Origin: a virus
Virus record (IMG/VR): IMGVR_UViG_3300047444_000198
Span: 1 to 64,000 of that record
DNA length: 64,000 bases
Reading direction: 5' to 3' (one strand)
Part shown: in pieces, positions 35,477 to 59,546 of the stretch
Layout: each line of letters opens with the position of its first letter
Position numbering within the stretch: position 1 is the stretch's first letter
Notes under the pieces: generated by a model
Databases searched by the model: none
What the model was told of the DNA's origin: nothing
What the model saw: only the letters and a program-made list of their open reading frames with translations
Made by a program: the position numbers and the translations under genes

Positions 35477-37021
35477 TCACCCCTCCCGGTAGCTATCGAG
35501 CAGTGCGGCGGCGATGCTGTCGTCGTCCAGGATCGTGGTCGCTGTACCGTCCAGTACGGTGCCAGTCACGGCAGCCTTGTCATTGAGGATCGACATGAGC
35601 CGTTCATCCACCGTCGCCACGCCATTGGTACCGAGCATGATGTGGCTCACGACCTCGCGAGTCTGGCCGATACGGTCTAGGCGATCCTCGACCTGTTGTA
35701 GGTCTCCGGGCGTCCACGGTAGCTCCGCGACGACGATATGACGGGCCGCCGTGAGCGTGAATCCCACGCCAGCGGCGACGATGTTCCCCGCCAGTACCCG
35801 GGCCTTGCCTGACTGAAAGGCGTCTACGGCAGCTTGTTTCTGGACCGTGGAATCGTTCCCTGTGATGGTCACGGCGCCGAACGCCTCGACCATGGCGCGG
35901 ATCGTGTCGGTATGCGTGGCGGCGATGAACACTTGCTCGCCCTCGTCCAGGAGCCCTTGCACGTACTCGACCACGGCCGCGACCTTAGCCTGGCCGATAA
36001 GGCGCCGCAGGGTATTGAGCAGTACCAGAGCCTCAGCCTTGCCTGCGGACTCAGCAGCCTTGTCGCCACGCTCGCCCCGCACGTAGGCAATCAGGTCATC
36101 TTGCGCCCGCACGTAGTCACGTGCAGCCGTCCCGGCCATGGCGGTCCCGACACTGATACGGCCCTTGCCTGGCAGCGTGAGCACTTCCGAACGCAGGCGC
36201 CGCAGGTAGAACGTGGAGACCATGGTCTCGTGAAGCTCACTCAGGTACGCACTCCCACGCGTGCCCCACCGGTCCAGTACCGGACAGTAGCGATTGAGGA
36301 ACGACCACCAGCCGCCGAACACATGATCGACGCCCGCGATACGTAGCTGGGTGGCTAGTTCACTGGGCCGGTTGACGATAGCCGTGCCACTCATGAGCAC
36401 CCGCAGTGCACCATGGGGGAGCGTGGCGGCGAGCGCCATGGCGGCACGTGCGCGTTGTGCCTTGTATGACTTGAATCGATGCGCCTCGTCTACCACCAGG
36501 GCGCGGATGCCCATCGTGGTCAGTACCCCGTTCACTACGTCACGTGACTTCCCGGTCCGCTGGTCAGTCACCTTGACCAGACCGGCCCACTTGCTGAGTA
36601 CAGCGTCACCGATCACGTAGAAGTCAGCGTCGGCAGGCAGCACCGGCTTGGTACCAGTCAGCACCACCACGCGGGCACCCGGCACCAGCCGCACAATCTC
36701 GTTCCGCCAGTTGAGCGTGAGGCTAGGGGGACACACAACGAGAGCCGGGTACGTGCTGGGTGCCAGCGCAATGGCGGCGATGGCGGCGAACGTCTTACCC
36801 AGGCCCATCTCGTCGCCGACGTAGCTACCGCCGAACCGGGCGACGTCGGCATGGATGCGCTGGACTGCCTCGACCTGGTGGTCAAGGAGGGGCAGCGCGA
36901 GAGCCGTGAAGTCGAACGACGTCGTAGCGGCGATGGCGGTGGCGGCGACGACGGTAGGCAGGGCCGCGCTAGGCGTGGCGGCGAAGAATGCGGACAGGGC
37001 GTTAGTGGGTGCGTTGGTCAC
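35477..37021 (-). CDS. SNF2-family DEAD/H helicase
   Basis: 514 residues. Motif I VGDEMGLGKTFAAIA at about residue 65, motif Ia VVCPPSLTLNWRNE, motif II VVDEAHRF at about 175, motif III LMSGTAIVNRP, and C-terminal motifs GVGFTLTAA, VVAELPWTPGDLQQVEDRLD and RIGQT. This is the SNF2/Rad54-like order, a dsDNA translocase that would remodel protein-DNA complexes in replication or recombination. The GTG start at 37021 is 7 nt from TAGGCT; the longer frame to 37069 would translate the promoter cassette. It starts MTNAP like two neighbours. Confidence 0.9.
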   Translation of the reverse strand: MTNAPTNALSAFFAATPSAALPTVVAATAIAATTSFDFTALALPLLDHQVEAVQRIHADVARFGGSYVGDEMGLGKTFAAIAAIALAPSTYPALVVCPPSLTLNWRNEIVRLVPGARVVVLTGTKPVLPADADFYVIGDAVLSKWAGLVKVTDQRTGKSRDVVNGVLTTMGIRALVVDEAHRFKSYKAQRARAAMALAATLPHGALRVLMSGTAIVNRPSELATQLRIAGVDHVFGGWWSFLNRYCPVLDRWGTRGSAYLSELHETMVSTFYLRRLRSEVLTLPGKGRISVGTAMAGTAARDYVRAQDDLIAYVRGERGDKAAESAGKAEALVLLNTLRRLIGQAKVAAVVEYVQGLLDEGEQVFIAATHTDTIRAMVEAFGAVTITGNDSTVQKQAAVDAFQSGKARVLAGNIVAAGVGFTLTAARHIVVAELPWTPGDLQQVEDRLDRIGQTREVVSHIMLGTNGVATVDERLMSILNDKAAVTGTVLDGTATTILDDDSIAAALLDSYREG

Positions 37022-44563: not shown

Positions 44564-44592
44564 GAGCACAAGTCTACGCTTGTTGAGTCACC
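44564..44592 (-). promoter_or_regulatory. Start cassette of the 44563 gene
   Basis: GTGACTCAAC half-palindrome near 44582-44591, TAGACT 44571-44576, 7 nt, ATG. Confidence 0.65.
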
Positions 44593-44918
44593 ACCGCATG
44601 AGGCAAACGGACCATTTCGTCAGGTTCCGTGTCAGTGTCAGTGGCCTCGATGGTGGGATCACCGTGCAGAGCAAACGTGTGCTCGCAAGGCTCACCCTTG
44701 GGCGGGGCGAACATGATGCGCTCCACGTCCAGCCGGTCGAGAGCATCCAGCAGAGGCACGCACGCCGTGACCATGGCACCCAGGATGAACAGGGCGCCGA
44801 TCATCGCCGCGACCTTGTGCGTGCCCTCCGCGAAAGCGCCTGTGTACACGTAGCCGCCGACCGTGAACAGGACACCGGTAGCGCCCATCCAGCACCAGAA
44901 GCGTTTGCGCTGGCTCAT
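44574..44918 (-). CDS. Two-helix membrane protein
   Basis: 114 residues with transmembrane segments WCWMGATGVLFTVGGYVY and VAAMIGALFILGAMVTACV, then a soluble acidic tail. A 13-mer repeat encodes EATDTDTE. The stop TAG is the first half of the next TAGACT box. Topology would fit a holin or exclusion protein, but nothing proves either. Confidence 0.65.
   Translation of the reverse strand: MSQRKRFWCWMGATGVLFTVGGYVYTGAFAEGTHKVAAMIGALFILGAMVTACVPLLDALDRLDVERIMFAPPKGEPCEHTFALHGDPTIEATDTDTEPDEMVRLPHAVVTQQA
44631..44643 (-). repeat. 13-mer CACTGACACTGAC
   Basis: In the 44574 membrane protein gene, encoding TDTD. Confidence 0.9.
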
Positions 44919-45437: not shown

Positions 45438-45677
45438 TCAGGCCAGCACGAAGAACGCCAGCGTGACCACCACCATGGCCGCAAACAACACCTTGCCAGC
45501 CAGGCGATGGCGTACTGACCAGGGGTAGCGCTTGCGGTAAGCACGGCGCTTCACTCGGTACCGGCGCTTGACGTCACGGTCCCAGGCTCGGCGCATCTTG
45601 CGCTCACCACGCCGTGTCTCGACCACGTGCATCCGGCCGTAGACGTCTACAGGCACCTTGATCGAGCAGAGGGGCAC
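45438..45677 (-). CDS. Basic protein with C-terminal membrane helix
   Basis: 79 residues from the GTG at 45677: PLCSIKVPVDVYGRMHVVE, a strongly basic stretch (DVKRRYRVKRRAYRKRYPW) and a terminal helix (GKVLFAAMVVVTLAFFVLA). A start at 45788 is also open and would add a proline-rich segment that includes a 12-bp hairpin, so the start is uncertain. Confidence 0.5.
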   Translation of the reverse strand: MPLCSIKVPVDVYGRMHVVETRRGERKMRRAWDRDVKRRYRVKRRAYRKRYPWSVRHRLAGKVLFAAMVVVTLAFFVLA

Positions 45678-45695
45678 GTCGCGAGAGGACCCAGC

Positions 45696-45735
45696 GGTGC
45701 CGTTGACGGGAGGAGGAGGACCAGTCAACGGCACC
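45696..45735 (-). terminator. 12-bp stem-loop after the LPXTG gene
   Basis: GGTGCCGTTGAC and GTCAACGGCACC form a perfect stem with a 16-nt purine-rich loop, 25 nt downstream of the LPXTG gene stop. Probable terminator or processing site. Confidence 0.5.
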
Positions 45736-45759
45736 GATGAGGGTGGGGGAGGAGGCAAG

Positions 45760-46341
45760 TCAGACCCCGGCTCGTGCCGCACGCTCACGGGTGACAAGTA
45801 CCAGCCACGCGCCTCCAAGAAGGAGGGCAATCGCTCCAAGGGCCAGCGGAAGCGAGACGGTACCGGTCGTGGGTAGTTCCGTAGGGACGTGCGGTGCAGG
45901 AGTGGCAGCACTGTCCGGCGTACTGACGTCCGGCGTGGTGCTCGGCGTGGGGGGAGCAGTGGTGGCAACGGTGGTCACCACGCTCGGGGGCACGGTCGTC
46001 TCCACAACGCTGGGGGGAGTCGTGGGGGGCACCGATGATTCTGGCGTGCTCGTGACAGGTGTAGACGTGGGAGGCACGCTGGACTCAGGCACGCTGCTCG
46101 GTGCGCTGCTAGGCGGTACCGATGACTCGGGCACAGACGAGACGGGCACGCTGCTCGGCTCGCTGCTCGGGGTGCTGGACGGCGGCACACTGCTGTCAAC
46201 CTCCGTGCTGCTCGGGGTGCTGCTCGGCGTGGACGTGGGCGGTTGGTAGCTGTGACTGCCGTGGGCCGACGCAGAGCCGATGACGAACGCACTCCCGCCG
46301 AACATCACGGCACCAGCCAGTAGCAGGTGCTTGATGTGCAT
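45760..46341 (-). CDS. LPXTG cell-wall-anchored surface protein 1
   Basis: 193 residues. Signal peptide (KHLLLAGAVMFGGSAFVIGS, then ASAHG). A ~110-residue stalk of Ser/Pro/Thr repeats (SSVPESSVPPTS units). Then ELPTTG, a hydrophobic helix (LPLALGAIALLLGGAWLVLV) and a basic tail (TRERAARAG). This is a complete sortase sorting signal, so the host sortase should attach it to peptidoglycan. Likely alters the infected cell surface, for example to block superinfection. Confidence 0.85.
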   Translation of the reverse strand: MHIKHLLLAGAVMFGGSAFVIGSASAHGSHSYQPPTSTPSSTPSSTEVDSSVPPSSTPSSEPSSVPVSSVPESSVPPSSAPSSVPESSVPPTSTPVTSTPESSVPPTTPPSVVETTVPPSVVTTVATTAPPTPSTTPDVSTPDSAATPAPHVPTELPTTGTVSLPLALGAIALLLGGAWLVLVTRERAARAGV

Positions 46342-46391
46342 GGTTCGGCACCCTATCAGGCTCCAAGATTCATAGGGATAGGCCGTTTGCC

Positions 46392-47051
46392 CTATTGCTT
46401 GCAGGCACGCCTGTGAGTCAAGCACACCAGGACCACGCCCACCAGCACCGACATGACTCCAACACTCCCCAGGGGCACGCTCGGGCTACCGGTGACCGGC
46501 AGGGAGGCAGCCGGGGCCGTTGTTGCCACATGGTGCGACTTGGGTGGGCCTGTACGGACCTCTGAGGCCGTCTTGTCAGTGTCAGTGGCTACCGGTGACC
46601 CTGCCAGCGCCGTTGACGGCTCCTGCGCCACTACAGCGGTCGTGGTGGTGGGATCAGGCGTGGTAGCTCGGGGACTGTCACAGGACACAGGCTCCTGCGT
46701 GGGTGATCCAGGGACGATGCACACCGGCACGCCGCCGATGACCGTCTGGTGCGGGGTGGTATCAACCGGGGCCGTGGTCGTGGTAGTGGGCGCGCCACAC
46801 GCCACGTCTCGGGATGCAGTCCAAGGAGTGAACACCTTGGTACCGTCTGACAACGTGCCAGCGACCCGGCCGCTCTCGCTCAGAGTGTTGCGAAGCTGAG
46901 CCGTGATGGCCTTGCTCTCGCCCGGTCCCAGGTCCAAGCCGACGATCCATGAGTCGGCCGTGGCACTCTGACCGTGGAAGGCCAGCGCCGCATCGTTGGT
47001 GATGGTGACTACCACGTGGTAGTCACAGTCCATCGAGCCGTTGGCGATCAT
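46392..47051 (-). CDS. LPXTG-type surface protein 2, no visible signal peptide
   Basis: 219 residues. An N-terminal beta domain (YHVVVTITNDAALAFHGQSA ... GLDLGPGESKAIT) resembles a cellulose-binding-like or Ig-like fold. A Thr/Pro linker with two Cys-containing segments follows, then SLPVTG, a hydrophobic helix (VGVMSVLVGVVLVCL) and RRACKQ. The sorting signal is complete but no export signal is seen before the domain; the start is fixed by an ATGA overlap. A 13-mer encodes VATDTDKT. Confidence 0.75.
   Translation of the reverse strand: MIANGSMDCDYHVVVTITNDAALAFHGQSATADSWIVGLDLGPGESKAITAQLRNTLSESGRVAGTLSDGTKVFTPWTASRDVACGAPTTTTTAPVDTTPHQTVIGGVPVCIVPGSPTQEPVSCDSPRATTPDPTTTTAVVAQEPSTALAGSPVATDTDKTASEVRTGPPKSHHVATTAPAASLPVTGSPSVPLGSVGVMSVLVGVVLVCLTHRRACKQ
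46575..46587 (-). repeat. 13-mer CACTGACACTGAC
   Basis: In LPXTG protein 2, encoding TDTD. Confidence 0.9.
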
Positions 47052-47485
47052 GCCTGGCCCATGATGTTGCGGGCGTCCCGAATGAGAGTCACCAGCGTGC
47101 CCGGAGCGCCGTCAGTGGTGAAGTCGTCAGCGACGTGACGAACGAAGCTCGCAAGCTCGCCCACGTCGTACCCCTCGCTGGGCGAGTCTCCCTCGGGGCT
47201 GTCGCCGTACATGAGCCAGTTGCTCAGCGTCTCGTCCAGGTCGGTGATCTTCTCCATGGCGTCGTCGCCGTAGAACTTGATCTCACAGCCAACAGAGCCG
47301 TAGACGATGTGGAGCGTGTGACCGGTGCGACCGATGACCTCGACGCCATTGCTGGTGTAGCGCTCGGGCACGCTGGTGAGTTGAACGCTGGTGACGGTGT
47401 CCAGCTTAATCGTCTTGCGCTGGCCGAAGGTGTCCCACAGGCAGATAGCTCGGGCGTTGACGACGTAGTCGGTGTAACTGCTCAT
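47048..47485 (-). CDS. Hypothetical protein upstream of LPXTG 2
   Basis: 145 residues. A PH-like beta domain (KTIKLDTVTSVQLTSVPERY ... GHTLHIVYGSVGCEIKFYG) and a helical C-terminus (ELASFVRHVADDFTT). TAGACT 6 nt before the ATG; the stop overlaps LPXTG 2 (ATGA), so the pair is co-expressed. Confidence 0.62.
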   Translation of the reverse strand: MSSYTDYVVNARAICLWDTFGQRKTIKLDTVTSVQLTSVPERYTSNGVEVIGRTGHTLHIVYGSVGCEIKFYGDDAMEKITDLDETLSNWLMYGDSPEGDSPSEGYDVGELASFVRHVADDFTTDGAPGTLVTLIRDARNIMGQA

Positions 47486-47536
47486 GCAGTCAGTCTAGTT
47501 GCGTTGACTCAACAGCGCATGAGTCGTTCGGCTCAT
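47486..47536 (-). promoter_or_regulatory. Start cassette of the 47485 gene
   Basis: Hairpin near 47519-47536, palindrome 47503-47513, TAGACT 47492-47497, 6 nt, ATG. Confidence 0.7.
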
Positions 47537-47879
47537 CTTCCAGCACGTCCCACACGTTGGTCACGAACTCGACCAGGGGCAGGATGGGATCACCGCGCTT
47601 GCACGTCCACTGCACCAGGCCCAAGCCGGTCAACCGGCGCACGTGACCTTGTACACAGGACGTGCTGAGACCGGTCCTGTCGCGCAGATCGTGAATGCTC
47701 TCCACGCCGTCCATGACATGGAACAGAAGCTCGGTAGCAGTCGGACCCACGGCCTCGAAGCCACGCATGCGCCAGTAGCCGATCTGCTGCGGTCGCCAGT
47801 TGGGACCTAGCTGCTGCGGCGCAGAGGGCGGAACTACAAGAGCCTCCGGAGAGGCAGGGTCATCCGGAGGCTCCTGCAT
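47490..47879 (-). CDS. Winged helix-turn-helix regulator with cassette-encoded tail
   Basis: 129 residues. PTATELLFHVMDGVESIHDL, RTGLSTSCVQGHVRRLTGLG and LVQWTCKRGD form a MarR/ArsR-like winged helix. The tail DEPNDSCAVESTQLD comes from the next cassette. TACACT 7 nt before the ATG. Candidate regulator of the downstream LPXTG operon or the cassettes. Confidence 0.72.
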   Translation of the reverse strand: MQEPPDDPASPEALVVPPSAPQQLGPNWRPQQIGYWRMRGFEAVGPTATELLFHVMDGVESIHDLRDRTGLSTSCVQGHVRRLTGLGLVQWTCKRGDPILPLVEFVTNVWDVLEDEPNDSCAVESTQLD

Positions 47880-47991: not shown

Positions 47992-48108
47992 TTACCCCTC
48001 CTTGGGGGTGCTGCGTGGTGCAGGCTCGGGCGGCGCAGCATCGAGCACAGCATCGAGCAGTTCGCCGGGGTTGGGCAGGGGCTTGACGTCGAGCGGTTCG
48101 TCATTCAT
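47992..48108 (-). CDS. 38-residue proline-rich peptide
   Basis: NDEPLDVKPLPNPGELLDAV, then a Pro-rich end. ATG overlaps the glycosidase stop (ATGA). Only the overlap supports it as a gene. Confidence 0.4.
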   Translation of the reverse strand: MNDEPLDVKPLPNPGELLDAVLDAAPPEPAPRSTPKEG

Positions 48109-49358
48109 GAAGGCCACGCTTTCGTAAAGATGTTCTGCTTCATGTCCCGGTAGATCTGGTACTTGGTACCACTTGTGGCCTGCCACCCAAAGCTGTCCTC
48201 TCGACCGTCGCCGGTCTTGCGGTCGATGGCACAGAACCAGAAGAACGGGCCGAGACGGTTGGCGTACTGGTTGAGGCAGCCACCGGGGAGGTAGGCGTTG
48301 AGCGCATCCTGAGCCCGCTGTGACTGCGTGGCCTGATTGCCACCCACGGCGCTACGGGGACAACCGGTCTCGGTGGTCCACAAGCTCACGCCCCGCCCTG
48401 GTGCGTACTTGTCGATGATGGCGAGCGCCGCCGCCACTGCCTTGGGTGACCATGACGGCCAGTTACCCACGTCCTTGCACGCCGTGTCGGTGTCCAAGTA
48501 CGGGTGCCAACCGACAGCATCGCAGGCCGAGAACAGACCTTTCTGGCCGTAGCTCTCGATGGTGGACAACGCGCCACACCCTGGCGGGGACGGCTGGCCG
48601 GTGGACTGGAACACCGTGTCGGCCGTGGACAGGCCTCCGCTCACGACGATCATCTGAGGCACTGACGCCTTGATCGCCGGGTAGGCAGCCTTCATCATGC
48701 GCGTGTACTTGCCTCGGTAGGCGTCATCCGTGGACGGCTGGCCGGTCCAGAAGCCGGAGAGATTCTGCTCGTTCCACAACTCGATGGCGGTCACGCCCAT
48801 GTTCCACAGGTGCCCCGCCGCCTTGCTGCACCAGTCGGCATAGTCCCCGTCGTTGGTGGGCGGGTTCTTGTCGTTGGACGCCCCGTTCATCCATTGAGGC
48901 AACATGTACAGAATCGGTAGAGGCTTGATTCCGCGGGTCAGGGCCACTTGGACCCAGCGGTCAGTGTCGGCCCAGTTGTAGACGCCCTTCTGCGGGGACA
49001 CCTGGCGCACCGGGTAGTCACCACGCCACCAGCCCGCGCCGACGTCCTTGATTATGTCGCCCTGTTGGGCCAGGAAGTCAGACGGCACGCCCTGCACCTG
49101 CTCTAGCGGCATGGAGAACGCGCCATAGCGCTGGCCGAGAGTCTGTGTGGTCGTGGGCGGCTGGATCGGGGGCTGGATGGGCGGCTCAACCGGGGGTGTG
49201 ACGGGCGGCTTGTACGCCGCTAGGGCGTCAGCGTCGGCATTGATCGCCGCCGCTGCGTTGTTGACGTTGGTCGCCTGTTGAGTCAGGGCGGTGCCGACGT
49301 TGGTTAGGGCGGTGGCCTGCTTACGCAGGTCATCGATGACTGGTTGCAGGTCACTCAT
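48105..49358 (-). CDS. GH39-like (clan GH-A) glycoside hydrolase
   Basis: 417 residues. N-terminal coiled coil (residues ~5-50), a proline-rich hinge (PPVEPPIQPPIQPP), then a TIM-barrel-like domain. Its acid/base motif AIELWNEQNLSGFW is at about residue 190 and the nucleophile motif SLWTTETGCPR at about 325; this pairing is typical of GH39 and PslG-like endoglycosidases. No signal peptide. Likely cleaves a host exopolysaccharide or wall glycan; the coiled coil suggests oligomerisation or virion attachment. Confidence 0.8.
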   Translation of the reverse strand: MSDLQPVIDDLRKQATALTNVGTALTQQATNVNNAAAAINADADALAAYKPPVTPPVEPPIQPPIQPPTTTQTLGQRYGAFSMPLEQVQGVPSDFLAQQGDIIKDVGAGWWRGDYPVRQVSPQKGVYNWADTDRWVQVALTRGIKPLPILYMLPQWMNGASNDKNPPTNDGDYADWCSKAAGHLWNMGVTAIELWNEQNLSGFWTGQPSTDDAYRGKYTRMMKAAYPAIKASVPQMIVVSGGLSTADTVFQSTGQPSPPGCGALSTIESYGQKGLFSACDAVGWHPYLDTDTACKDVGNWPSWSPKAVAAALAIIDKYAPGRGVSLWTTETGCPRSAVGGNQATQSQRAQDALNAYLPGGCLNQYANRLGPFFWFCAIDRKTGDGREDSFGWQATSGTKYQIYRDMKQNIFTKAWPS

Positions 49359-49384
49359 GCAACCGAACCGTAACACGTCACCAC

Positions 49385-50955: not shown

Positions 50956-51077
50956 CGCCCCAATCTAAAGACGGTGATGACGAGAGCGAGCAGAGAGACC
51001 GGACGGACCCGCCGCTGCTCACGGTACCGGAGCGCTCGGGGCTGCTTCCGCAGCCGCATGGGAGGCATGGGGAGCAT
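50952..51077 (-). CDS. 41-residue basic membrane peptide
   Basis: Basic N-terminus (MRLRKQPRALRYREQRRVRP) and a short hydrophobic segment (VSLLALVITVF). TGATG overlap with the Ku stop and overlap with the next gene support it. Function unknown. Confidence 0.45.
   Translation of the reverse strand: MLPMPPMRLRKQPRALRYREQRRVRPVSLLALVITVFRLGR
50962..50967 (-). promoter_or_regulatory. -10 box TAGATT, leaderless type
   Basis: 6 nt before the GTG at 50955, inside the 41-residue peptide gene. Confidence 0.45.
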
Positions 51078-51880
51078 CAGACGGCCACCTTCCCCTTGTT
51101 GGCGTTGATGGACGCCATGAGGTCGGACAGGAGGTCAGGACCGGACGGCTGTGCGTCAAGGACCACCGCAGGCTCGACACCCGCCGCCTTGTTGTCCACG
51201 TAGGTCTGGATGGCCTGCGACGTGGTATCGACCAGTACCGGGGCGCTCACGCCCACGCTCTCGATCAGCGCCAGAGCAAGGTCGCTCTCCTGCTTGCTCA
51301 CGGTCGCCGTGGGCAGATCGATGGGCTGGCGGATGGCGTCGGCCGTGACCACGTACCGGAGGTCCCCGGCGCAGTCCAGGATGGCGTACCGGGCCGGTCC
51401 CCGCATGGCGAGCTTCACCAGCGCGACCACCTTGCGCTCCTTCATGGCAGCGAGCAACAGCGTCAGCGCCTTGACACCGGACGGGTCCGACTTGCCCTTC
51501 ACCCGGCGTGGCCTGATCTGGTACAGGCCTTCCGTGAGGTACTGGCCCAGGTTGCGGGTCTGGATGAACGTCTCGATGACGGCGATGCCCTTCGGCATGG
51601 TTGCGTCAACGATCTCGTCGTCGTCCAGCGTCACCCACGCACCGGACGTTGCCTCAGCACGGCGCACCACGTCAGCGCGATCGATGATGACACCGGTCGT
51701 CTTGTTGGTGAGCGCACGGCCCACCGGCTGCCAGGCGCCCTCAGCGTCCTTGGTGAACTCCTTGCGGGCGATCCGCACTTCCTCGGTGCCGGTGTAGGCC
51801 GAGACCGGAATGTTGAGCAGACCCCAGGAGATGGTGAAGGAGGTTGTGGCCCGGTTGGGAGTGGGGGCGATTGCTTTCAT
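51077..51880 (-). CDS. ku: Ku-like DNA end-binding protein
   Basis: 267 residues. TTSFTISWGLLNIPVSAYTG, TEEVRIARKEFT, then IIDRADVVR and TLDDDEIVDATMPKG follow the bacterial/phage Ku core, which forms a homodimeric ring around DNA ends. VKALTLLLAAMKERKVVALV and KLAMRGPARYAILDCAGDLR match the late core. No LigD-like ligase is in the window, so it may recruit the host enzyme or protect genome ends for circularisation, as proposed for mycobacteriophage Ku proteins. TAGAAT 6 nt before the ATG. Confidence 0.88.
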   Translation of the reverse strand: MKAIAPTPNRATTSFTISWGLLNIPVSAYTGTEEVRIARKEFTKDAEGAWQPVGRALTNKTTGVIIDRADVVRRAEATSGAWVTLDDDEIVDATMPKGIAVIETFIQTRNLGQYLTEGLYQIRPRRVKGKSDPSGVKALTLLLAAMKERKVVALVKLAMRGPARYAILDCAGDLRYVVTADAIRQPIDLPTATVSKQESDLALALIESVGVSAPVLVDTTSQAIQTYVDNKAAGVEPAVVLDAQPSGPDLLSDLMASINANKGKVAV

Positions 51881-51940: not shown

Positions 51941-51963
51941 CCCCTCACCCGAATGGTGAGGGG
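51941..51963 (-). terminator. Stem-loop at the 3' end of the AAA+ gene
   Basis: CCCCTCACC-cgaat-GGTGAGGGG, perfect 9-bp stem overlapping the stop codon at 51945-51947. Likely terminator; no long T-run. Confidence 0.55.
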
Positions 51964-52991
51964 CTGTCGGCGAAGTTGTCGCCAGAGCCAGTGAGCGGGT
52001 GCCGGTTGTCGGCAGCGTTCGCGATCAGGCCCTTGAACGACCGGGACTCGACAATCTCATCGAACACCAGTTTCTCGTCGGCCGTGAACATGGAGCGCAG
52101 GACGAACAGCGCCATGTCAACGCCATCCTCGATCACGTCTGAGCAGACCCGCATGAGCGCGCTGGTACCAACTGGCGTCCGGATATGGCCGGTGGCCCTC
52201 GCCTGGCGCAGAGCGTCACCCAGCGTGCGAACCGCATCGTTAGGGATCAGCCGGTGCTCGACCGTGGGATCGTAGGCCCATTCCAGGTGCCGGAACCGGT
52301 TGGCGAAGGCCTCATTCAGCGCACCCGCGCCCCGGTAGTTGGGGTTCATGGTGCCGACGATCCACAGGTCGGGACTGATGTGCACGGTCTCAGGCATGAA
52401 GCCGTCGCCGGGGACCTTGACGGCCTTGGCCCGGTTGGTGAACGAACGCCGCCAGTCGGCCATGGGATGCAGGGAGGACGTGACCCGCTCCGGCATCATG
52501 TTCACTTCGTCCAGGTAGAAGATGCCGCCGATCCTGGCAGCCATGTCAGCGATGCCGGGGAGCCAGACGATCTGCTCCTGGCCGGTCTCGGGATTGGTCC
52601 AGGCCGTGGGTTGACCGAACATGTCGAAGTCGGTGATGCCGTTGCTGGCCGAGAGGGTGAACACCGGGACCGGGAGCACCTTGCCATCACGGTTCAGGCC
52701 CATGGCCTCCCCGATGTGGATGGCGAGGACGTTGACGAGCATCGTCTTGCCACCCTGCGTGTCGCCCACCAGCAGGACGTTCTCCCGGCTGGCCCACTTC
52801 GCCAACAGGTACTCGACGTCAGTCTTGCCATTGGGCAGCTTGCGACTCACGTACTCCTGCACCAGCGCCGGATCGGGCCGGAACATGTCGAGACGAGGGT
52901 CATCGATGGTCAGCGCGACCGATTCCTCGTGCGTCACCGTCAGGTGGCGGGGAGCGGTGCGCTTCATCACTTTGGTGGGCTGCTCGGTCAC
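51945..52991 (-). CDS. MoxR/CobS-type AAA+ ATPase
   Basis: 348 residues. Walker A LVGDTQGGKTMLVN at about residue 75, Walker B GGIFYLDEVNMMP at about 155, sensor 1 WIVGTMNPNYRGAG, and arginine-finger region ALNEAFANRFRHLEW. The pattern matches MoxR/CobS AAA+ proteins, which act with VWA-domain partners; a VWA gene lies divergently 180 bp away. Unlike most genes here it has a leader: TAGAAT around 53021, then AGAGGA 5 nt before the GTG. Confidence 0.87.
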   Translation of the reverse strand: MTEQPTKVMKRTAPRHLTVTHEESVALTIDDPRLDMFRPDPALVQEYVSRKLPNGKTDVEYLLAKWASRENVLLVGDTQGGKTMLVNVLAIHIGEAMGLNRDGKVLPVPVFTLSASNGITDFDMFGQPTAWTNPETGQEQIVWLPGIADMAARIGGIFYLDEVNMMPERVTSSLHPMADWRRSFTNRAKAVKVPGDGFMPETVHISPDLWIVGTMNPNYRGAGALNEAFANRFRHLEWAYDPTVEHRLIPNDAVRTLGDALRQARATGHIRTPVGTSALMRVCSDVIEDGVDMALFVLRSMFTADEKLVFDEIVESRSFKGLIANAADNRHPLTGSGDNFADSPSPFG

Positions 52992-58187: not shown

Positions 58188-59546
58188 CTAGTGGCTTGAC
58201 CATGGGGTTGGTGAGTCATCCGGGCTCAGGGTCCTCAGAACCTCGTCGCTAGAGACCGGGATGGGCAGTGCCCGAGCCGCCGTTCCAACGCCCTCACCGA
58301 ACAAACGGGACAGCACCCCACCGTTCGCCTTAGCCTCCATGGAGAACCTGAACGTGGCCGAGTCGTCCAGTATGTCCTTCATCTTCGCCATCATGGAGAA
58401 GAGCCTGTCCATCTCGGCCGAGAGCGCTGCGTCAACACCCTGGCCGTCTAGCTGCTCCCCGTACCGGGCGAAGGCCACACGCTGCATCTGCATCTCGATC
58501 CCGGCCTGACAGATGGCCTGGATCTGGTCCTTGGTCCGAGCCTCTACGGGGATGTTGAACGCGCACGTCGCATTCAACTGATGGGCGGGGCAGGTCGCTG
58601 CTAGATAGCACGTGTTGCACTGCCTGAACGACGTCCCCAAAGTGATGATCGTCTGCATGGTCTCAGTGCGCTGAACACCGTCGCCATCGGTCACCACGCG
58701 GTCGTTGTCCACCATCTCCAAGCCGGGGAGGAGGATCTGCGCTCGCCCTCCTCCGGGGCCGGGTTGGTGCCCGGTCGGTTGATCCACGAGAGCAAGCCGC
58801 CGCTCGCTCGATCCGGTTCCGTCCTGGTCGCTGTAGACCTCGTTGCTTGACAATGGGACCACCGTTCGGGGCGTGTAGCGCTCCTCCCACTCCTGCCAGG
58901 ACCGGATCGCCAGCCGCGACGTCTCCACCGGGTCATCCGCCAGCACCTGGCTGTAGTCCACTCCTAGCCGTTCAATGTCAGCCCGGTGCTTGGGCCGAGC
59001 CTCGGCCTTGCGGTTCCCGGCGTAGCGGTGCAGCTTGTTCCCCGCCCACACCTGGGTCTCCCCGAAGCGCTGGGCCATGAGCCAGGCATAGCTCACCACC
59101 ATGTCCAAGCGCTCCACGCCCTTGGTTGCTCCAGTGACGGCGCACAGGATGCTGGCCGTGTACTGGTTCATGATGCGCCGCAGCGTCACAGAGGCCTTCA
59201 CGGTGTCATCAGTGAGGCCGACGATGGGCCACACGTTCGGCTCGACACCCTCGCTCCAGAACGGTCCAAAGGCCGCTCCAGGCTCGAAGTGCTTGGCCCA
59301 CGTGATCGGCCCGAGCACCATGTAGGGCTGCTGCTCGATGAACGGCTCAGCCATCTCCCACGTGGTCTCCAAGTCGGCGTAGACGATCCAGAGCGCCCCG
59401 TCCGGCAGGTGGCTGTCCACGTCGAAGTTCTTGCTGGCGATCCGGTCCAGGTTGGTGAGGTTGAGCGCGAAGCGCTCGACACCACACTCGATCAACAGGT
59501 TCCGGTGGCTGGGCTGCTCAGCGCCTGCAAAGAAGAGCTTGGTCAC
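58188..59546 (-). CDS. Hypothetical protein with Cys-rich motif
   Basis: 452 residues. N-terminal alpha/beta domain (LIECGVERFALNLTNL ... DGALWIVYADLETTWEMAEP), a central basic part and a Cys motif FRQCNTCYLAATCPAHQLNA, then TCAF. Helical C-terminus (ALSAEMDRLFSMMAKMKDIL). GTG start; TAGCCT lies 7 nt upstream. No family recognised; it precedes the virion-type genes on its right. Confidence 0.62.
   Translation of the reverse strand: MTKLFFAGAEQPSHRNLLIECGVERFALNLTNLDRIASKNFDVDSHLPDGALWIVYADLETTWEMAEPFIEQQPYMVLGPITWAKHFEPGAAFGPFWSEGVEPNVWPIVGLTDDTVKASVTLRRIMNQYTASILCAVTGATKGVERLDMVVSYAWLMAQRFGETQVWAGNKLHRYAGNRKAEARPKHRADIERLGVDYSQVLADDPVETSRLAIRSWQEWEERYTPRTVVPLSSNEVYSDQDGTGSSERRLALVDQPTGHQPGPGGGRAQILLPGLEMVDNDRVVTDGDGVQRTETMQTIITLGTSFRQCNTCYLAATCPAHQLNATCAFNIPVEARTKDQIQAICQAGIEMQMQRVAFARYGEQLDGQGVDAALSAEMDRLFSMMAKMKDILDDSATFRFSMEAKANGGVLSRLFGEGVGTAARALPIPVSSDEVLRTLSPDDSPTPWSSH

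Follow-up and report, generated by a model that had tools for sequence, protein, structure and literature searches.

Genes and features at the locus

The DNA analysed in this work, referred to below as the window, is a stretch of 64,000 nucleotides from a 76,395-base IMG/VR virus record. Two adjacent minus-strand ORFs in it, here called genes A and B, end in LPTTG and LPVTG motifs, behind each of which come a hydrophobic helix and a basic tail, and the two neighbouring sorting signals described in the initial annotation are thus confirmed. Both genes belong to a same-strand cluster which runs from a winged-helix candidate through the gene starting at 47048, gene B and gene A to gene C. The features are, in order of coordinates:

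45438..45758, minus strand: gene C, about 106 aa (start uncertain), directly downstream of A; basic, with a C-terminal hydrophobic helix
45760..46341, minus strand: gene A, 193 aa; signal peptide, Ser/Thr/Pro-rich stalk and LPTTG sorting signal
45760..45876, minus strand: sorting signal of gene A, LPTTG, hydrophobic helix and RERAARAGV, then stop (anchor model, tail scan, shuffle test)
46264..46341, minus strand: putative signal peptide of gene A, MHIKHLLLAGAVMFGGSAFVIGSASA, with an A-X-A cleavage site (sequence)
46392..47051, minus strand: gene B, 219 aa; Cys-bracketed stretch, Thr-rich linker and LPVTG, without signal peptide; ATGA overlap with the upstream stop
46392..46502, minus strand: sorting signal of gene B, LPVTG, hydrophobic helix and THRRACKQ, then stop (tail scan, shuffle test)
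46797..47027, minus strand: putative domain of gene B, bracketed by Cys9 and Cys85 (sequence)
47048..47485, minus strand: gene upstream of B, 145 aa; ATGA overlap with gene B
47490..47879, minus strand: putative winged-helix regulator, 129 aa, likely the first gene of the transcription unit; MarR_2 E=0.0012 and HTH_5 E=0.0024, both under the Pfam cut-off

The product of the 47048 gene had been called PH-like, a name for which we found no basis, as it has no match in Pfam, PHROG, NCBIfam or PDB sequences. The winged-helix assignment of its upstream neighbour is kept as a weak candidate, the MarR/ArsR matches being sub-threshold (E about 1e-3).

The genome contains portal, head and tail genes, and the structural genes lie at 1-19 kb. 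Its MCP (57-58% identity), portal (58%) and TerL (46%) are homologous to and collinear with those of Streptomyces phage BRock, the gene order being the same, and by these markers the genome is that of a BRock-like (Borockvirus) myovirus. BRock itself is a 112.5 kb myovirus without predicted lysogeny genes and was described as virulent (PMC7453282). Two contigs of sample 3300048088, IMGVR_UViG_3300048088_000144 and _000132 (54,613 and 58,827 bases), were 100% identical to the present virus in all the proteins compared, and both end within ~40 bases of each other at 51,050-51,090 of the window (positions worked out by hand). They appear to be two halves of the present virus, and their meeting at this point suggests a genome size of about 113 kb. 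The relatives of the MCP in named genomes come mostly from Streptomyces, Nonomuraea, Actinomadura and Terracoccus, together with two MAG contigs from other phyla; since they are mostly actinobacterial, the host is probably an actinobacterium. Elsewhere in the window, a gene resembling queuine tRNA-ribosyltransferase lies at 58188..59546, and in a related contig the portal frame (G021:C1:19905-21563) holds one TAG stop.

Gene A resembles a full sortase substrate

The start of gene A is most likely the ATG at 46341, which replaces the earlier choice of 46425. From this start the N-terminus reads MHIKHLLLAGAVMFGGSAFVIGSASA|HG, a signal peptide according to a sequence heuristic, so that the export signal expected of a sortase substrate is predicted to be present. 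The stalk which follows is about 130 residues long and of low complexity (S 20%, P 18%, T 14%), with no globular binding domain, and the C-terminal end, LPTTGTVSLPLALGAIALLLGGAWLVLVTRERAARAGV, combines LPXTG with a hydrophobic segment and a basic tail. Gene A is the only ORF in the window in which a signal-peptide-like start and a sorting signal occur together. The LPXTG_anchor model TIGR01167 scored 19.5 bits in the genome search, against a curated cut-off of 15.9, and a borderline 15.9 bits in the whole-protein scan; PF00746 gave 13.7, under its cut-off of 20. Taken together, these features give gene A the appearance of a full sortase substrate. At the sequence level its description as a phage-encoded wall-anchored protein holds, and we consider it likely that the product is exported and attached to the wall. 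Two observations count against this. The codon score of gene A is 0.135 compared with 0.177 in another frame, possibly an effect of such a composition; codon bias does not single out the frame, which is a point against a wall-anchored bristle. The Streptomyces class E sortase uses LAETG-type motifs (PMC10924467), which speaks against anchoring of gene A, although the preference of the present host may differ.

Could the likeness to LPXTG proteins be incidental, A and B being virion or lysis-related membrane proteins? Gene C and the ORF at 44574..44918 also encode hydrophobic segments, which makes the cluster membrane-related. However, when the 645 open frames of 60 codons or more in the window were subjected to a strict tail test (LPXT[GA], helix and basic tail), exactly two passed, genes A and B, while residue-shuffled windows gave an expectation of 0.0015 tails and never more than one in 2000 rounds. 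Two such tails per window are far above chance. A looser scan of 152 sequences, comprising the window and loci of related phages, gave one further convincing case, in a related genome (G007) treated below, so the tail test is specific. Coincidence also hardly accounts for a signal peptide, low-complexity stalk, LPXTG, helix and basic tail combined in gene A, and the A/B region lies far from the structural genes. We regard this alternative as quite improbable.

Gene B has a sorting signal without an export signal

The N-terminus of gene B is MIANGSMDCDYHVVV, and its start codon overlaps the stop of the upstream gene. We found no signal peptide in it, and an in-frame upstream extension was ruled out as a source of one, as the frame is open for just 20 codons (RRSGHAGDSHSGRPQHHGPG), none of them forming a hydrophobic segment. 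The tail, LPVTGSPSVPLGSVGVMSVLVGVVLVCLTHRRACKQ, has LPXTG, hydrophobic segment and basic end, and shuffles of this same tail pass the test at 4e-5; in the whole-protein scan no curated anchor model came above its cut-off. The Cys9-Cys85 stretch had no family match in Pfam, PHROG or NCBIfam, and the single-sequence AlphaFold model (pLDDT 39.5) is uninformative. Among the six frames, that of gene B scores best for synonymous codons (0.183), so gene B is probably translated. Its anchoring is not supported, because the export signal that anchoring requires is missing. The wall attachment initially proposed for both genes therefore stands for gene A, by its sequence features in a phage genome, and lacks support for gene B. 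A basic tail after a helix favours an N-outside topology according to the positive-inside rule, and to reach it gene B would require either a partner or a signal peptide of its own. Export by means of a signal on a partner protein is known for Tat hitch-hikers (PMC10924467) and is possible in principle, but the signal peptide of gene A does not contain a twin arginine, and we saw no other partner. Gene B probably derives from a similar exported protein with a Cys-bracketed stretch, a Thr-rich linker and an intact sorting signal, and may now be N-terminally truncated, decaying, or exported via an unrecognised route.

Are A and B then pieces of host surface-protein genes, gained by recombination and presently without function, with B a relic which has lost its signal peptide? 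An intact sorting signal beside a missing signal peptide would fit, and the GC3 of both genes (0.74-0.75) is below that of the core phage genes (0.83-0.87). Against this, both ORFs are intact and lie in a tightly packed same-strand cluster, the frame of gene B has the best codon score, and phage genomes tend to shed useless DNA. On balance such an origin without function seems unlikely to us.

The surrounding accessory block

Genes A and B are part of a block of 13 kb, at 38-51 kb, which is absent from 12 related contigs (some fragmentary) and from BRock, and which is flanked by shared genes, the helicase at 35477 and the 37095 gene on one side and Ku at 51077 and a MoxR-like ATPase at 51945 on the other. 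A block without counterpart between shared flanks is the pattern expected of accessory genes or morons. The Ku-like gene (51077..51880, minus strand) adjoins the MoxR-type AAA ATPase (51945..52991, minus strand), and the pair is common to some related phages.

Two further features were recorded. At 48105..49376 on the minus strand lies a putative glycoside hydrolase that resembles PslG and GH39 beta-xylosidases (E=5e-5 against PDB sequences); it combines an Ala/Asn-rich N-terminal part with a Pro-rich linker, shows no obvious signal peptide, and is possibly a depolymerase. The repeat CACTGACACTGAC[AG] occurs in 22 copies in the window, on both strands and in genic as well as intergenic positions (for instance 47938, 46574, 45423, 44630 and 43778), whereas 0.66 copies of CTGACACTGACA with at most one mismatch would be expected. 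Two copies flank the cluster from the winged-helix candidate to gene C. The repeat is nearly absent from related phages, with single copies in L041/L126 and L058, and so is specific to the present virus.

Wall-anchor proteins in other phages and in chromosomes

In IMG/VR, genes A and B have no homologue except in one 100% identical contig, and that the only relative is an identical contig counts against gene A as a wall-anchored bristle. Gene B gave four weak hits among 396 Actinomycetota genomes, which lay in the low-complexity portion of the protein or involved interrupted frames, and we do not take them for homology. No LPXTG-type tails were found near Ku in related contigs (L177-L182) or near the MCP in host-genome loci (L152-L161). 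An LPXTG_anchor profile search of 20 records was above cut-off in the present virus, its twin contig and G007, the genome of a sister phage (109,846 bases) whose MCP is 60% identical. The G007 protein has 490 aa, with a signal peptide (possibly with a lipobox), Thr-rich linkers, two Cys-containing domains and the ending LPPTG, helix and GRKRRRA. A TIGR01167 match in G030 (L188) was not counted, as it is a WGLLGLLGLAGLAGLKRR-type helix without LPXTG; at ~1307-1656 of L188, on a contig classed as viral, a small exported protein with the WGLLGLLGLAGLAGLKRR motif stands beside a PRC-barrel/DUF2382-like gene.

Relatives of the G007 protein were found in seven further IMG/VR contigs; in four of these the portal shares 58-67% identity with the one in the window. 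One of the seven, G023 (96,595 bases), which by its portal, tape-measure and terminase is assigned to a different phage group, retains LPHTG, helix and RRRKIA. The other six (L163-L165, L167-L169) keep the signal peptide and domains, have divergent linkers and stop after LPPT-x (LPPTA, LPPTR, LPPTL, LPPTR, LPPTR and LPPTV); no frameshifted membrane tail was found past these stops in the three downstream frames. Two of the eight members thus keep a full LPXTG signal and six have no membrane tail, and this absence also fits the view that A and B are passengers without function. The gene neighbours of G007 and G023 differ from those of the other loci, except for one gene common to two loci, and since neighbours are not shared the gene seems to move by itself, as a stand-alone mobile gene.

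The rarity of phage genes for wall-anchored proteins, as put forward initially, has to be qualified. LPXTG_anchor had no match in BRock and four cultured relatives, and neither gene A, gene B nor the G007 protein matched any of 50,697 phage records. Yet there are independent cases in at least two other metagenomic phages and one in streptococcal prophages, from which LPXTG genes in phages are already known (PMC6546898).

The sister-phage proteins are predicted to contain beta-rich extracellular-type domains (AlphaFold pLDDT 77); in a PDB fold search nothing reached E <= 0.001, the weak hits being mostly beta-sandwich domains. The conserved C-terminal domain of the family (alignment A2, 73-86% identity) was found in six of the 396 Actinomycetota genomes at E <= 1e-4, the best at 4.9e-20. 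At least three of these chromosomal proteins are of the wall-anchored type: L197 (LPDTG, helix, RRRREQVA) and L196 (LPPTG, helix, RRRRGIAG), both with DUF11 repeats, and L200 (LASTG, helix, RVRRKRA). The presence of this domain in chromosomal wall-anchored proteins indicates that phages of the present group carry host-type sortase substrates, and by these alignments host-like surface-protein genes recur in such phages. Gene A has no detectable homology to the G007 family, whose support for the wall-anchor interpretation of gene A is one of analogy alone.

A possible role in shielding the infected cell

What could a phage gain from such a protein? We hypothesize that gene A is a moron for a short wall-anchored bristle that shields the infected cell and its debris, a reading to which, taken as a whole, we give a probability of roughly 0.45. 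The host Sec system would export the product via the N-terminal signal peptide, and the host sortase would cut LPTT|G and couple the Ser/Thr/Pro-rich stalk to peptidoglycan. Probably the stalk would be O-mannosylated by an actinobacterial host and become a hydrophilic brush, whose most likely use would be to keep further phages from adsorbing to the infected cell's surface and, after lysis, to the wall debris, in other words superinfection exclusion or debris protection. Protein O-mannosylation is general in actinobacteria, and mannose-donor mutants of S. coelicolor resist phiC31 (PMC5882110, PMC5982138), which implies that surface glycoconjugates matter for adsorption. A motive for a lytic phage is seen in T5, whose Llp keeps phages from reinfecting the cell and from adsorbing to lysed fragments (PMC9586334): blocking adsorption would stop reinfection and the loss of progeny on debris. 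The shielding role, taken for itself, is tentative.

Perhaps the bristle instead alters the adhesion or aggregation of infected cells and aids spread or persistence. The extracellular-type domains of the sister phages, which also occur in chromosomal wall proteins, would suit this, and an adhesin was proposed for the LPXTG gene of the phiD12-like streptococcal prophages (PMC6546898). But gene A is a low-complexity stalk with no binding domain, and an advantage from adhesion is more readily imagined in lysogens than in relatives of the virulent BRock (PMC7453282), so we hold this to be rather improbable and keep shielding as the preferred use. More speculatively, and with low probability, the host sortase pathway may be a general display system for phages of this actinobacterial group, with horizontally traded, host-derived Thr/Ser-rich coats whose anchored (gene A, G007, G023) and secreted (LPPT-x stop, six phages) forms would be alternative strategies of one surface-shielding system.

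Should the product of gene A indeed be anchored, a phage whose relatives are virulent would be remodelling the wall surface of its Gram-positive host by means of the host's own sortase. Envelope proteins are familiar agents of superinfection exclusion in Gram-negative hosts (Llp, Cor), but the literature searched, which covered few subscription journals, contained no account of actinobacterial phages that display proteins covalently on the wall. Through the domain that it has in common with chromosomal wall proteins, the sister-phage family connects host surface proteins and the accessory genes of phages in evolution, and it opens the idea to tests in Streptomyces, using BRock-type phages.

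Comparison with known systems

Gene A resembles the chromosomal LPXTG substrates of Gram-positive bacteria (TIGR01167 / PF00746) in its signal peptide, low-complexity stalk, LPTTG, helix and basic end, and differs from them in being phage-encoded and without a globular domain, whereas gene B differs in having no signal peptide. The phiD12-like streptococcal prophages likewise carry a sortase-type surface-protein gene (PMC6546898), but they are temperate and belong to Bacillota, while the present virus is a BRock-like myovirus of actinobacterial type. In its proposed role gene A would be comparable to the superinfection-exclusion lipoproteins Llp and Cor of T5 (PMC9586334), envelope proteins that stop adsorption to cell and debris. 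Llp is a lipoprotein which jams one outer-membrane receptor, whereas gene A would form a brush covalently bound to the wall, and we claim no homology between them. Lastly, CwpV of C. difficile is a wall protein that blocks phage infection (PMC4737114), as proposed here for gene A; it is host-encoded and acts after adsorption, whereas gene A is encoded by the phage and would act on adsorption itself.
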